Of a stretch of DNA of 38,994 bases, positions 30,714-38,994 are shown one piece after another. Position numbers and translations under genes: made by a program. The notes under the pieces are model-generated. The model did not search any database. It had not been told where the DNA came from and saw only the letters and a list, made by a program, of their open reading frames with translations. The DNA comes from Alphaproteobacteria bacterium (GTDB taxonomy: Bacteria > Pseudomonadota > Alphaproteobacteria > Rhizobiales > Devosiaceae): positions 1 to 38,994 of the forward strand of contig JAHJOS010000659.1 in the NCBI GenBank assembly GCA_018820005.1. Direction: 5' to 3'. Each line of letters begins with the position of its first letter. Within the stretch, counting starts at the first letter, position 1.

Positions 30714-31916
30714 ATGGCAATAGGAACAAACACCCTCGTCGACAGCGGCCTGCCGCTATTCTTTGAACTGGTGAATGCCGCGGAAGTTGGCATTGAACCA
30801 CCAGAAACCAGGATGGGCGACAGCCTGCGGACATGGGTTCGCTCCCTTTCGGTTTTTCAGAAGGAAGCCCTTGTCGCGTCCTCCCGCACCGGCAAGGTCT
30901 GGCGCCTAGCCAGCGATGAAGGCCCCTATCTCGACGGGCACGACGCTGCCCCCTGCCCGCTGGCATTCCTGACAACCGGGATGATCGCCAGCTACATGAA
31001 CGAGATCACGGCGCTGGCAACGCAGCAGAATATCGAGATCAGGAAATTAAAGCTCACTCAGGACAACTACTACACAATGACCGGCTCCATGCCCAAACGC
31101 ACCATGGTTGGCGGTGCTTTGCCGGTTGAGCTTCAGGTCGAGATCGATTGCGATCTTGCTGACGCCAGTCTCACGCAGTTCCTGATGAACGCGGTGCACG
31201 CCTCGCCTCTGAACGGCCTGATGCGCGGGAAGCTCGAAAGCCTGTTCACGCTTTCCAAGAATGGACGAGAAATTTCCAACGGGAAGGCTCTGCGAGCGGC
31301 TGGGCCGGTCTATCCAGATCCCGGAAACAGGTTCTCCCTGGTCCAGTCGGGCTCTGGTTCGGCTACCGAAACCCTCTGCTGGCCTGAAGGAATTACTCCG
31401 AAGAAACAGATCAGGGGCGGAACCGAAACAGCAGGCTCGTCATTGGCGGCGGAACAAAACCGGACGCTCAACATCGGCGCAACATGCACCCTGCGCGAAG
31501 ATGGAATGAAGGAAATCCTGCAACTGCAATACAGCCCTCACGGAACCTCTTTTAATTTCCTTTCCGAGGAAGCGCCGATCAATGGCGGCCTTGGCCGAGC
31601 GCCGGACGCCAATAGCTATATCTCCGCAGGTATCGGCTTCTGCTTCATGACCCAGTTCGGCCGCTTCGTCAAAATGCTCAATCTCGATCTGAGCGATTAC
31701 CGGATTGTACAGGACAGCCATTTTTCGCTGGGCGGAGCGTCAGGCGGCACCGGCAAGCCGGGTAAAGCGGATCCGCTGGAAACACACGTCTATCTGGAAA
31801 CCGGCGAAAGCGATGAGGTTGCCCGCGAGATGCTGGATATCTCGGAACAGACCTGCTTTCTCCATGCTTTCTGCAAGACCGACCTGAAAACCAAACTGAG
31901 GATTAACAGGATCTAA
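30714..31916 (+). CDS. OsmC-family protein with two OsmC-like domains in tandem
   Basis: First half PCPLAFLTTGMIASYMNEITALATQQNIEIRKLKLTQDNYY...ASLTQFLMNAVHASPLNGLM; second half SYISAGIGFCFMTQFGRFVKMLNLDLSDYRIVQDSHF...EMLDISEQTCFLHAFCKTDLKTKLRI. Confidence 0.72.
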   Translation: MAIGTNTLVDSGLPLFFELVNAAEVGIEPPETRMGDSLRTWVRSLSVFQKEALVASSRTGKVWRLASDEGPYLDGHDAAPCPLAFLTTGMIASYMNEITALATQQNIEIRKLKLTQDNYYTMTGSMPKRTMVGGALPVELQVEIDCDLADASLTQFLMNAVHASPLNGLMRGKLESLFTLSKNGREISNGKALRAAGPVYPDPGNRFSLVQSGSGSATETLCWPEGITPKKQIRGGTETAGSSLAAEQNRTLNIGATCTLREDGMKEILQLQYSPHGTSFNFLSEEAPINGGLGRAPDANSYISAGIGFCFMTQFGRFVKMLNLDLSDYRIVQDSHFSLGGASGGTGKPGKADPLETHVYLETGESDEVAREMLDISEQTCFLHAFCKTDLKTKLRINRI

Positions 31917-32103: not shown

Positions 32104-32904
32104 CTAATCGATCAGCGTCACGTTCAGGGTGACCTGATCCACCTGTCGCGACCGTGTACCGACGGCATGGTCCAACACTTCGCGAAAGTTGTTGCCCGCC
32201 ACGTCTTCAAGCACGGCATCGACCTCGACGGTGACGTCCCGATCCCCCCACGGGTCATCCGGGGTAAACTGCCAGACCGTCGCGTTGTCGCGCACCTCCA
32301 CCCTGCCCGGCAACCGCTGACCGGCAGCGTTGCGCAAGGCAATGGCTTGCGGCAGTTGGAACCGGTCGAAAGGCCGGTCAAAACGCAGAACCAGCGGCAT
32401 GTGCGTACCGATGCGCGGCGGCGTGACGGCCCAGTCGCTCACGTCAGGACGGTTTCGAAGCGCATTGCCAACACGGAACGTCGCTCGGAATTCGGTGGGC
32501 AATTCCTGACCTGCCGTATTTGGCCAACCAGCAGCGACGACGATTGTATAGTTTTGCCCGGCCTCCAGTGCCGGCCCAAGGTCCATGTTCGTGGCAACGC
32601 CGCGCTTGATCCGGCCCGGATCTATCAACAACGTGAGCCGCGTGCGATCGGCATTCCACAGTTCTTGTTTGAACGTCATGAAGGCAGCGCTGTCTGTGGT
32701 GCCATCGGAACGTTCCAGCGTGATGAAAGCATCGGAGCGATGCGGCTGCATGGGGGATGCAAACTCGATGTAGAACCTGAGAGTGTTCTCGGGCAGGACC
32801 GGCCCGCTTGGATAGATCGCAACAACCTCGGTTGGTTGCGGCAGGTTATCGGAAGCGATGGTGAATTCCTTCAGCGTTGCACCGTCGATTAGCGCCGAAT
32901 AGAC
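32104..32904 (-). pseudogene. C-terminal part of an exported Ig-like-domain protein, interrupted by IS66
   Basis: Open frame runs ...YSALIDGATLKEFTIASDNLPQPTEVVAIYPSGPVLPENTLRFYIEFASPMQPHRSD...LTLLIDPGRIKRG... up to the IS66 left end; joins in frame with 35887-36188. Confidence 0.88.
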
Positions 32905-32982
32905 GTAAGCGGTGTCCCTGTCACACCTCGGCCCCCCGATGGAGATGAGGTATCCGCTCAGTAGGCTGTCACACGCGACGAT

Positions 32983-33396
32983 TTATGGCAGGTCATGCGC
33001 ATGAACGAAGCACAGCTTGTTTCCCTCGGGATCGCGACAATAGGCAGCGAAAAAGTCATCACTGTATTGCGGACGGACGGCGGGTTCGCCTTCATCTGAT
33101 CCTCCGTGGTCAATCGCGGTTTGCCAAGCAGCGACGACGTGCTGTCGCGATGCCGCGGCAAAACTGACTTGTACGCCGTTACCCGCAGTTGCGGTTCGGC
33201 CATCGAACGGACGCCTTAGAGCAAACTGGGGCCATCGTTGTCCGCACCGCTGCCAGATGAAACCGGCTTGGCTATCGGCCGCGTGAACGGGATCACGAGC
33301 TAATCCTAAGGTGCCAAGCACTGCATCGTAGAAGGCCACCATAGCCTCAACGTCATTTGCGCCAATCATTACGTGGCTGAACATCTTAAATCTCAT
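32983..33396 (-). CDS. VOC/glyoxalase superfamily protein, passenger gene within IS66
   Basis: MFSHVMIGANDVEAMVAFYDAVLGTLGLARD ... FFAAYCRDPEGNKLCFVHA; 15 nt downstream of tnpC and inside the IS ends. Confidence 0.88.
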   Translation of the reverse strand: MRFKMFSHVMIGANDVEAMVAFYDAVLGTLGLARDPVHAADSQAGFIWQRCGQRWPQFALRRPFDGRTATAGNGVQVSFAAASRQHVVAAWQTAIDHGGSDEGEPAVRPQYSDDFFAAYCRDPEGNKLCFVHAHDLP

Positions 33397-33411
33397 CCTG
33401 CCGGGGCAAAA

Positions 33412-34992
33412 TCATACCCTGGCGAAGCTATTCCAAGGCAGTAATTCATCAATCCGGCTCTGCCTGTGGCCGTTGACGATGGCGATGAGCGTCGCAGTCA
33501 AATAGGTCAGCGGATCGACGGCATTGAGTTTGCAGGTCTCAACGAGCGAGGCGATGGTTGCCCAGTTCTCCGCTCCCGCATTATGCCCCGCGAAGAGCGC
33601 ATTCTTCCTGTTAAGGGCAATCGGCCTGATTGTCCGCTCAACGGTATTGTTGTCGATCTCGATACGACCGTCGATCAGGAATAGCTGCAGGCCATCCCAG
33701 TATTTGGCAATGTAGGCCAGTGCCTCGCCGAGTGGAGACTTCGTTGAAACGCGTGCGCGGTGATGGACAAGCCAGTCATGCAGGCCAGCGACGAGTGGCG
33801 CTGATCGTTCCTGCCGTCCAGCGAGACGAGCCTGCGGATCAAGGCCGCGCAGTTCGGCTTCGATGCGATACAGTTCGCCGATCCGCTTCACGCCATCCTC
33901 GGCAATCGGTGCTGACTCGTTGCGGGTGATCTCCACCAGCTTGCGCCGGGCATGCGCCCAGCAGTAGGCAAGCTGAATGTCTGGGCCGACACGCTCTGGT
34001 GCGATCAGCCTGTTGTATCCCGCATAGCCATCCACTTGCAGGATGCCGGAGAAGCCCTGCAGTATTCGTTCGGCATGAATGCCTCCCCGGCCAGGAGCAT
34101 AGGTGAAGGCAACACCTGGCGGAGCACCGCCGCCCCACGGGCGATCATCCCGCGCCAGCGCCCAGAAGTATCCGGTCTTCGTCTTGCGGGAGCCCGGATC
34201 GAGAACCGGGGCACGGGTCTCATCCATGAACAGCTTGGTTGAGCGCTTCAGGTCGGCGATCAACGCATCAAAGACGGGCCGCAGTTCATAGGCTGCCCGA
34301 CCGACCCAGTCGGCTAGCGTGGACCGGTCGAGGTCGATGCCCTGGCGGCTCATGATCTGAGCCTGGCGGTAAAGCGGAAGGTGATCGGCATACTTGGAGA
34401 CGAGAACATGCGCGACGGTGGCTTCCGTCGGCAGCCCAGCCTGGATCAGTCGTGCCGGAGCTGGAGCTTGAACGACACCGTCAGTGCAAGCACGGCACGC
34501 ATATTTGGGCCGCCGGGTGACGATCACGCGGAACTGTGCCGGGATCACGTCCATTCGCTCGGAGACATCCTCGCCAATGCAATGCAGACAACCGCCGCAG
34601 GCGCACGTCAGGCTTTCCGGCTCGATCACCTCTTCGACACGCGGGAGATGCTTCGGAAGGGAACCGCGATTGATCGCGCGTGGCTTGGCAATCCTGCTTC
34701 CAGCCGGAACGTCCGCCTCATCCTCGGCATGGATCACGGCCATAGCCGTCTCCAGGTCTTCCAGCGCCAGGTCGAATTGGTCCGGATCGGTCTTCTCGGA
34801 TTTGCGTCCGAAGGCTGCCTGCTTGAATGCTGCGACCAGCTTCTCAAGCCGTTCGATCCGCTCATCCTTGCGGGCGATATGTTCGTCCTTGCTGGCTATC
34901 GCGACATCCTTGGCCGCCTCGCGGGCCTGCGCCGCGATCAGCATCGCCTTCAGGGCGGCAATATCATCGGGAAAGTCGGCGGCATCAAGCAT
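33412..34992 (-). CDS. tnpC: IS66 family transposase TnpC
   Basis: AAFGRKSEKTDPDQFDLALEDLE; KYADHLPLYRQAQIMSRQGIDLDRSTLADWVGRAAYELRPVFDAL; IDNNTVERTIRPIALNRKNALFAGHNAGAENWATIASLVETCKLNAVDPLTYL. Confidence 0.97.
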   Translation of the reverse strand: MLDAADFPDDIAALKAMLIAAQAREAAKDVAIASKDEHIARKDERIERLEKLVAAFKQAAFGRKSEKTDPDQFDLALEDLETAMAVIHAEDEADVPAGSRIAKPRAINRGSLPKHLPRVEEVIEPESLTCACGGCLHCIGEDVSERMDVIPAQFRVIVTRRPKYACRACTDGVVQAPAPARLIQAGLPTEATVAHVLVSKYADHLPLYRQAQIMSRQGIDLDRSTLADWVGRAAYELRPVFDALIADLKRSTKLFMDETRAPVLDPGSRKTKTGYFWALARDDRPWGGGAPPGVAFTYAPGRGGIHAERILQGFSGILQVDGYAGYNRLIAPERVGPDIQLAYCWAHARRKLVEITRNESAPIAEDGVKRIGELYRIEAELRGLDPQARLAGRQERSAPLVAGLHDWLVHHRARVSTKSPLGEALAYIAKYWDGLQLFLIDGRIEIDNNTVERTIRPIALNRKNALFAGHNAGAENWATIASLVETCKLNAVDPLTYLTATLIAIVNGHRQSRIDELLPWNSFARV

Positions 34993-35061
34993 GGCTGGAA
35001 GCTACCAAATCCGGAGCCGATTTGCCTTCGGAATTTACGGTGCTGAGTCATCGTGCCGCAG

Positions 35062-35415
35062 CTATTCGATGGCCTCTGGCGTCCTCGTCTGGATGGCATG
35101 AACCCGCCGCCAATCAAGGCCCGCGAACAGGGCTTCGAACTGGGCGTGGGTGAGCGTCATCAATCCATCTTTGATGCCTGGCCAAGTGAAGGTGTGCTCT
35201 TCTAGCCGTTTGTACGCCATGACGATCCCGGAGCCATCCCAGTAGATCAGCTTCAACCGGTCCGCCTTGCGGGACCGGAAGACAAAGACCGTTCCGGTGA
35301 ACGGGTCCTTGCGCAGTTCGTTCTTCACCAACGCCGCCAAGCCGTCATGACCCTTGCGGAAGTCTACGGGTTTGGTGGCCACCATGATCCGCACGCGGTT
35401 CGATGGAAAGATCAT
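35062..35415 (-). CDS. tnpB: IS66 family accessory protein TnpB (Orf2)
   Basis: MIFPSNRVRIMVATKPVDFRKGHDGLAALVKNELRKDPFTGTVFVFRSRKADRLKLIYWDGSGIVMAYKRLE. Confidence 0.96.
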   Translation of the reverse strand: MIFPSNRVRIMVATKPVDFRKGHDGLAALVKNELRKDPFTGTVFVFRSRKADRLKLIYWDGSGIVMAYKRLEEHTFTWPGIKDGLMTLTHAQFEALFAGLDWRRVHAIQTRTPEAIE

Positions 35416-35828
35416 GTCGCTGCCGCCAGGGCGCGAGCGATAGCTGCGATCCGGGACGCCGACGCGCCTTCCTCAAGACGGATCGTAACTGGACCCACGA
35501 CGATCTCGGCGCGGGAAGCGGCCTTGACGGTCTGCGGCTCCGGCGCTGGAGCATCAACAACGATGGCCGCAAACTCGACTGCGTCTTCCGGCTCGGGCAA
35601 CACCAGCTTGCCCTGCCGAGCCAACGTCCGCCACGATGACAGGTAATTGGCCTTCAGCCCGTAGCGTCCTGCTACTTCGTTCACGGTTACGCCTGGTCTC
35701 AAGCTCTCCGAAACGATCCGTGCCTTGACCTCATCGGGGCCATTGGCGATGGGCCTCACGGCTGCTCCGCCGCGTTGTGAGAACCTCCAACGTAGACTCC
35801 ATGGAGAAACTCCTTGTCGCTCATCCAT
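35412..35828 (-). CDS. tnpA: IS66 family accessory protein TnpA (HTH)
   Basis: VKARIVSESLRPGVTVNEVAGRYGLKANYLSSWRTLARQGKLVLP. Confidence 0.9.
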   Translation of the reverse strand: MDERQGVSPWSLRWRFSQRGGAAVRPIANGPDEVKARIVSESLRPGVTVNEVAGRYGLKANYLSSWRTLARQGKLVLPEPEDAVEFAAIVVDAPAPEPQTVKAASRAEIVVGPVTIRLEEGASASRIAAIARALAAAT

Positions 35829-35886
35829 GGAAACTCGATCACAGATCAGGCAGCGGCTGCCAATGTGGGGGCGGAACAGCGCTTAC

Positions 35887-36188
35887 GAATAGACTTGGCC
35901 TTCCAGCAGTGGAAAGAGCGACTCAAAGATCACTGCATCCCCATCCATCCGGTAATGCCCCAAGACTCGAGACCGCCCTGCGCAACACTGGGATTGCGGA
36001 CCGACAAAGATCGACAACCTGTCTGCCGGCGGGCGCGCATCGGTGCTGTCCAAGTGCAGAATGATCTGATGCTCGCCACTGGCGGGCAGGACAAGGTCGC
36101 CCCCTGCAGAGAGGGCGATCTGAGGCAAAACCGCCGGCATCGTGGTCGCCAGACAGACCAGCCAAGCCGTCAGGCGACCACGCACCAT
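35887..36188 (-). pseudogene. N-terminal part of the exported protein interrupted by IS66
   Basis: MVRGRLTAWLVCLATTMPAVLPQIALSAGGDL signal peptide, ...FESLFPLLEGQVYS, then a stop supplied by the IS66 terminus (GTAAGC); continues in frame at 32896 after IS removal. Confidence 0.88.
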
Positions 36189-38594: not shown

Positions 38595-38994
38595 CTAGAC
38601 GAGTGCCAGGATATCGACCATCTCTCGATCGCCACCCGGCTTCTTGAGCAGGTATTGCTGCAAGGTCCGGAATGCATCGGGAAGCTCAATGAACGGTGCG
38701 CCGTTACGAAGAGCACCAGGCTTACGCTGCACCACCGCCAGATAGTGACGCCAGTCGTAGATGGTCTGACCCGGCCGATCATGGGACCGATCTATGACGC
38801 GGCGGTGCTCGCAAACGATCTGGCCTTCTGCGGCGACCACGACACGATCCGGATAGACCCGGAGGCTCACCGGTCGATTGGCGAAGGATGCCGGAACGCT
38901 GTAGCGATTGCGCTCCAGATGCACGAGGCAGGTGGGCGTGACCCGCTTCGTATATTCGACGAACCCGTCGAACGGCCTGGAGAGCGCCATGAGA
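38595..38994 (-). pseudogene. istA: IS21-family transposase IstA, C-terminal region; runs off the window and appears truncated at its 3' end
   Basis: VTPTCLVHLERNRYSVPASFANRPVSLRVYPDRVVVAAEGQIVCEHRRVIDRSHDRPGQTIYDWRHYLAVVQRKPGALRNGAPFIELP; ends abruptly at DILALV*. Confidence 0.82.

Follow-up and report, generated by a model that had tools for sequence, protein, structure and literature searches.

A VOC-superfamily passenger gene between tnpC and the left terminus of an IS66-family element from Devosiaceae

Insertion sequences that carry passenger genes are known as transporter IS (PMC3129680; PMC9330008). IS66-family elements with a transposition-unrelated passenger gene inside their terminal repeats are classified as tIS66 (PMC3129680, PMC12888890), and such passengers are present in 7 of the 25 Pseudomonas IS66 elements of ISfinder (PMC12888890). 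In the Pseudomonas element ISPa75, the passenger is fosZ, which lies downstream of the transposase gene tnpC, has a promoter between IRR and fosZ and has been shown to lower fosfomycin susceptibility (PMC12888890).

The DNA analysed here (38,994 nt of contig JAHJOS010000659.1, from an alphaproteobacterium of the Devosiaceae; referred to as the window) contains one complete IS66-family element at positions 32905-35886 (minus strand). This element carries a transposition-unrelated gene of the VOC superfamily inside its terminal repeats. It therefore belongs to the known tIS66 arrangement, with ISPa75-fosZ as the closest published case: both have tnpA, tnpB, tnpC and one passenger downstream of tnpC inside the terminal repeats, and they are of similar length (2996 bp for ISPa75, 2982 bp for the window element). 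ISPa75 differs in belonging to a Pseudomonas lineage and in its terminus (GTAAGCGTCCGGCG). The window element is thus a clear further example of an IS with a host gene, outside the described Pseudomonas cases.

The window element is assigned to the IS66 family by its TnpC, its tnpA and tnpB genes, its termini and its target duplication. The genes tnpA, tnpB, tnpC and VOC are encoded in that order on the minus strand, and all three tnp reading frames are intact. TnpA (35412-35828), the IS66 accessory HTH protein, matches PF01527 above cut-off and falls just below the cut-off of NF047595 (73.3 bits, cut-off 74). TnpB (35062-35415), the IS66 Orf2 protein, matches both PF05717 and NF033819 above cut-off. 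TnpC (33412-34992), the DDE transposase, has the domain PF03050 (339.8 bits) and matches NF033517 at 466.4 bits (cut-off 180). The left terminal repeat (IRL, 32905-32930, plus strand), whose 26-bp conserved end adjoins the passenger, and the right terminal repeat (IRR, 35861-35886, minus strand) start with GTAA, as in the IS66 family, and form imperfect inverted repeats (GTAAGCGGTGTCCC.../GTAAGCGCTGTTCC...; 14 of the first 20 positions agree). When the whole 39-kb window was scanned with a 26-bp terminus consensus built from other elements, the two best matches were the exact element ends (22/26 each), with no copy inside the element. On either side of the element is one copy of a perfect 8-bp target duplication, the length typical of the family (GAATAGAC; left copy 32897-32904, right copy 35887-35894; 8/8), and none of 300 shuffled-flank controls gave an equally good pair.

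The insertion site lies within a gene for an Ig-like protein (Big_5, PF13205), of which the 3' part (32104-32904) and the 5' part (35895-36188) are both on the minus strand. Removal of the element and one copy of the duplication restores a single open frame across the junction. Taken together, ends, duplication and rejoined frame confirm to the base the element given in the first-pass annotation, its length of 2982 bp included. No homologue of this host gene spanning the junction was found in 120 related genomes, and plasmid matches cover only residues 122-336, with the junction outside. As the gene (32104-36188) is unmatched in these 120 genomes, the contig may belong to the accessory genome, stem from horizontal transfer or have been placed in the wrong bin.

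The passenger gene (32983-33396, minus strand) encodes a protein of 137 aa with the conserved domain PF00903 (Glyoxalase; 39.3 bits, cut-off 20.6) and a further match to PF18029 (Glyoxalase_6), and the assignment also rests on alignments. Its reading frame begins 15 nt past the tnpC stop codon. The true start is probably the internal ATG at 33384, 12 nt later than annotated: in the Aquamicrobium relative the first ATG is missing, and the second is preceded by a conserved AGGA motif. The gap between tnpC and VOC would accordingly be 15-27 nt, and no promoter-like site was found in it. Because the two genes are co-directional and so closely spaced, the shared tnp transcript proposed earlier is plausible, and in the absence of a promoter-like site in the gap, read-through from tnp transcription is the most likely route of expression. 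In this respect VOC differs from fosZ with its promoter on the IRR side. The coding sequence is under purifying selection, with NG86 dN/dS values of 0.056/0.206 against the Hoeflea relative (ratio about 0.27) and 0.084/0.509 against that of Aquamicrobium (ratio about 0.17).

The protein belongs to the VOC superfamily both by its Glyoxalase Pfam match and by the paired beta-alpha-beta-beta-beta fold seen in its model and in the fold search. The AlphaFold2 model is confident (pLDDT 86.8). The nearest solved structures are 4qb5 (glyoxalase/bleomycin-resistance-like protein) and 4z04 (a probable lactoylglutathione lyase of Brucella), which have the same fold at 32-39% identity. As far as tested, neither is a mobile-element protein, whereas the window VOC is an IS66 passenger. 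4z04 was crystallised with glutathione; for the window protein, a link to glutathione is predicted. Among VOC relatives, H8 is nearly invariant and E124 invariant. From the structural matches, the best guess is that the product is a small, probably glutathione-linked glyoxalase-like enzyme. No defence match was returned by PADLOC.

Comparison with other IS66 copies places the passenger in a variable slot (32931-33429, minus strand), which extends from the inner edge of IRL to the PWN codons of tnpC and at both edges of which homology ends. In a comparison of 16 elements with different loads, conservation of the left end is limited to 26 bp, whereas that of the right end reaches further inward, and homology on the tnpC side ends just past the PWN codons. 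A BLAST search of the element against 72,556 plasmids gave 62 records with a query coverage of 80% or more; the 40 listed matches end at the tnpC terminus, and none of them reaches into VOC. Sister elements with cores of 83-89% DNA identity have unrelated genes in the same slot (TauE, EamA, SnoaL and an unrelated VOC), most of them with perfect 8-bp duplications that enclose the extra gene. Across the copies examined, the slot is occupied by TauE/SafE permeases (L034, L038), a LysR regulator with an EamA transporter (L035), a SnoaL-like protein (L037, L144), the unrelated VOC protein (L145, discussed below), Imm26 (L153), what looks by eye like an aminotransferase-like protein (L124) and small unnamed proteins. 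Cargo-less copies in the window's genus (L088) and order (L132) run from tnpC straight into IRL, with about 31 bp left; cargo-less copies with perfect duplications exist. The first-pass annotation had considered cargo in an IS66 element notable. That was an overstatement, as tIS66 is a recognised class (PMC12888890) and nearly all close relatives examined have extra DNA at the slot position, although the sample was picked by similarity and recognisable ends and the cargo-bearing fraction is not an unbiased estimate. Its proposed search for other copies did yield elements that lack VOC, which is one half of the condition set there against a passenger; these bear other slot genes, and the other half, a nested boundary, is absent from them.

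Slot contents do travel, because the SnoaL element occurs at two sites in one strain with different duplications (L037 and L144) and elements of the host genus with a small slot ORF likewise occupy several sites with different duplications. In the core tree, the nearest neighbour of the window element is the TauE element on a plasmid of Rhizobium sp. SL42 (L034; 88.9% DNA identity, support 100/99). This closest core has the same slot and architecture, but its TauE/SafE permease gene is in the opposite orientation, whereas VOC is co-directional with tnpC. All 13 sampled cores of the clade have extra DNA, of different kinds, and the elements of the window's own genus form a separate clade (about 73%). 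From the core tree and the varied slot loads, we infer that the core of the window element probably came from a Rhizobiaceae-type source and that the cargo turned over faster than the core.

A further related element is on plasmid pR132501 of Rhizobium leguminosarum WSM1325 (L145; core 84.9% DNA identity), with a co-directional VOC-family passenger in the same slot and an 8/8 duplication; its tnpC reading frame is unannotated. The two VOC proteins are just 26% identical, which points to a separate capture. With this other VOC-family gene, unrelated to that of the window (L145:5365-8453, perfect 8-bp duplication), it seems that the slot has taken up genes of the VOC type on more than one occasion. 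Slot-bearing IS66 elements also adjoin vir genes on the Ti plasmids pTiCFBP7129 of A. tumefaciens (L150) and pTi2788 of A. fabrum (L038).

What is new here is the slot itself, which runs from the PWN codons of tnpC to the 26-bp left terminus and is filled with many unrelated loads in one clade, and this is the part that a specialist might find useful. The boundary gives a simple rule for finding one-gene transposons that are annotated merely as "IS66 transposase next to gene X". Tentatively, and with rather less confidence than would be needed to favour it, the space between the PWN codons and the left end in this Rhizobiaceae-centred clade could be a preferred exchange site, at which one gene after another replaces its predecessor next to an unchanged core. 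Such elements would capture one gene at a time, with an effect comparable to that of integron cassettes, and the window VOC would be one such load. If the slot is truly an exchange site, individual genes, among them resistance genes such as fosZ, would have a cheap and general way to move between plasmids.

The history of this particular VOC gene was traced through its closest relatives, found in Hoeflea (89% protein identity), Aquamicrobium (84%), Aliirhizobium terrae (83%; truncated gene) and Rhizobium rosettiformans (78%). On the Aliirhizobium plasmid, a decayed tnpC end is joined to VOC (82% DNA identity over 455 bp, z 54). Aquamicrobium has a shorter relic of the tnpC end by VOC (score 44; the highest score among 500 shuffles was 26). 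In Hoeflea, VOC and the left end are retained (90% DNA identity over 516 bp), with tnpC reduced to its last dozen bases. These tnpC-VOC relics, together with VOC and the left end in Hoeflea, indicate that the association of this VOC with the element extends beyond the window. In the Hoeflea MAG (L039:3197-3716), the VOC block starts with the last tnpC bases and ends at the left terminus, which is almost exactly the extent of the slot, and no transposase adjoins it. In R. rosettiformans and Agrobacterium vitis, the gene order is nadE, cysteine hydrolase, VOC with no IS nearby, and this locus is a plausible ancestral setting. A native IRL-like sequence downstream of VOC was considered as the origin of the left end and is not supported, as the native R. 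rosettiformans and A. vitis loci have no similarity to the left-end side (z about 0 or below). No second intact VOC-bearing element turned up elsewhere in the fragmented genome of the host, among 398 genomes from the order and 385 from the class, on plasmids or on viral contigs, and the viral contigs had no VOC copies. We therefore infer movement of VOC itself from the anatomy and the relics; these are in line with the earlier expectation that a gene inside the element should move with it.

The window element is thus very probably a tIS66 consisting of tnpA-tnpB-tnpC and one VOC-superfamily passenger in a variable slot between tnpC and IRL. In the model proposed for it, the transposase would work on the outer repeats, such that the whole 2982 bp, including VOC, is copied as a mobile unit. 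VOC, at the tail of the tnpABC transcript, would most likely rely on a ribosome-binding site of its own for translation, and its product, judged by fold and relatives, would probably be a glutathione-linked metalloenzyme that helps the host against a reactive compound. Comparison with sister elements shows the position of VOC to be one that holds other genes elsewhere.

Three other readings were weighed against this model. VOC could be an ordinary chromosomal gene beside which an IS landed, the left end being there by chance or as a solo remnant of another IS66, and the IS-free relatives at the nadE loci of R. rosettiformans and A. vitis agree with such an origin. However, it is the end on the VOC side that the 8/8 duplication pairs with IRR, and the host gene continues from one side of the whole element to the other; the in-frame empty site refutes this reading. 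The tnpC-VOC junction is also found again in other genera. The consensus scan of the 39-kb window also found no internal terminus between tnpC and VOC, and a nested boundary there was rejected because terminus-like sequence is absent. A chromosomal neighbour is hence scarcely credible. VOC, inside the paired termini and with no second terminus separating it from tnpC, is a genuine passenger of the element, and the first-pass description of a complete gene 15 nt past tnpC and inside the left terminus holds.

The drug-resistance reading takes the passenger to confer resistance to fosfomycin, bleomycin or a similar compound, as in ISPa75-fosZ, with which VOC shares its position and its fold superfamily (PMC12888890). 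The fosfomycin effect of fosZ is demonstrated, whereas the function of the window VOC is predicted from sequence and fold. FosA-type proteins, FosZ among them, have a VOC fold, but the best sequence and fold matches are glyoxalase-like, and FosA is absent from the sequence matches and from the 50 best fold matches. In addition, relatives of about 60% identity are widespread in Pseudomonas genomes, more as expected of a housekeeping or stress enzyme. A resistance function is therefore unlikely, and the link to fosfomycin or bleomycin suggested earlier finds no support, the nearest structures being the glyoxalase-like 4qb5 and 4z04. It is also highly improbable that the gene in the slot belongs to the IS66 core as a fourth member that takes part in transposition, rather than being host cargo. 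Some slot occupants might be element parts, as a 90-aa orphan ORF recurs in several host-genus slots and in an Agrobacterium rubi element, but the occupants as a whole come from unrelated families (TauE, LysR with EamA, SnoaL, VOC, Imm26), and there are cargo-less copies with perfect duplications.

The 90-aa orphan family (MNDQDDPNLVTSGKSQRVVVDGYAF...) fills the slots of L085, L091, L095, L097 and L148, that is, of several host-genus elements and the A. rubi element. The one member checked (L148) has no Pfam match, and the orphan may have served the element as an accessory gene for a long time. Two further features of the window were recorded. A reading frame at the window edge (38595-38993, minus strand) looks by eye like the C-terminal region of IstA, the IS21 transposase, and positions 30714-31916 encode an OsmC-related protein that scores 126.4 bits with the NCBIfam (seleno)protein model OsmC_like_Se (cut-off 95).
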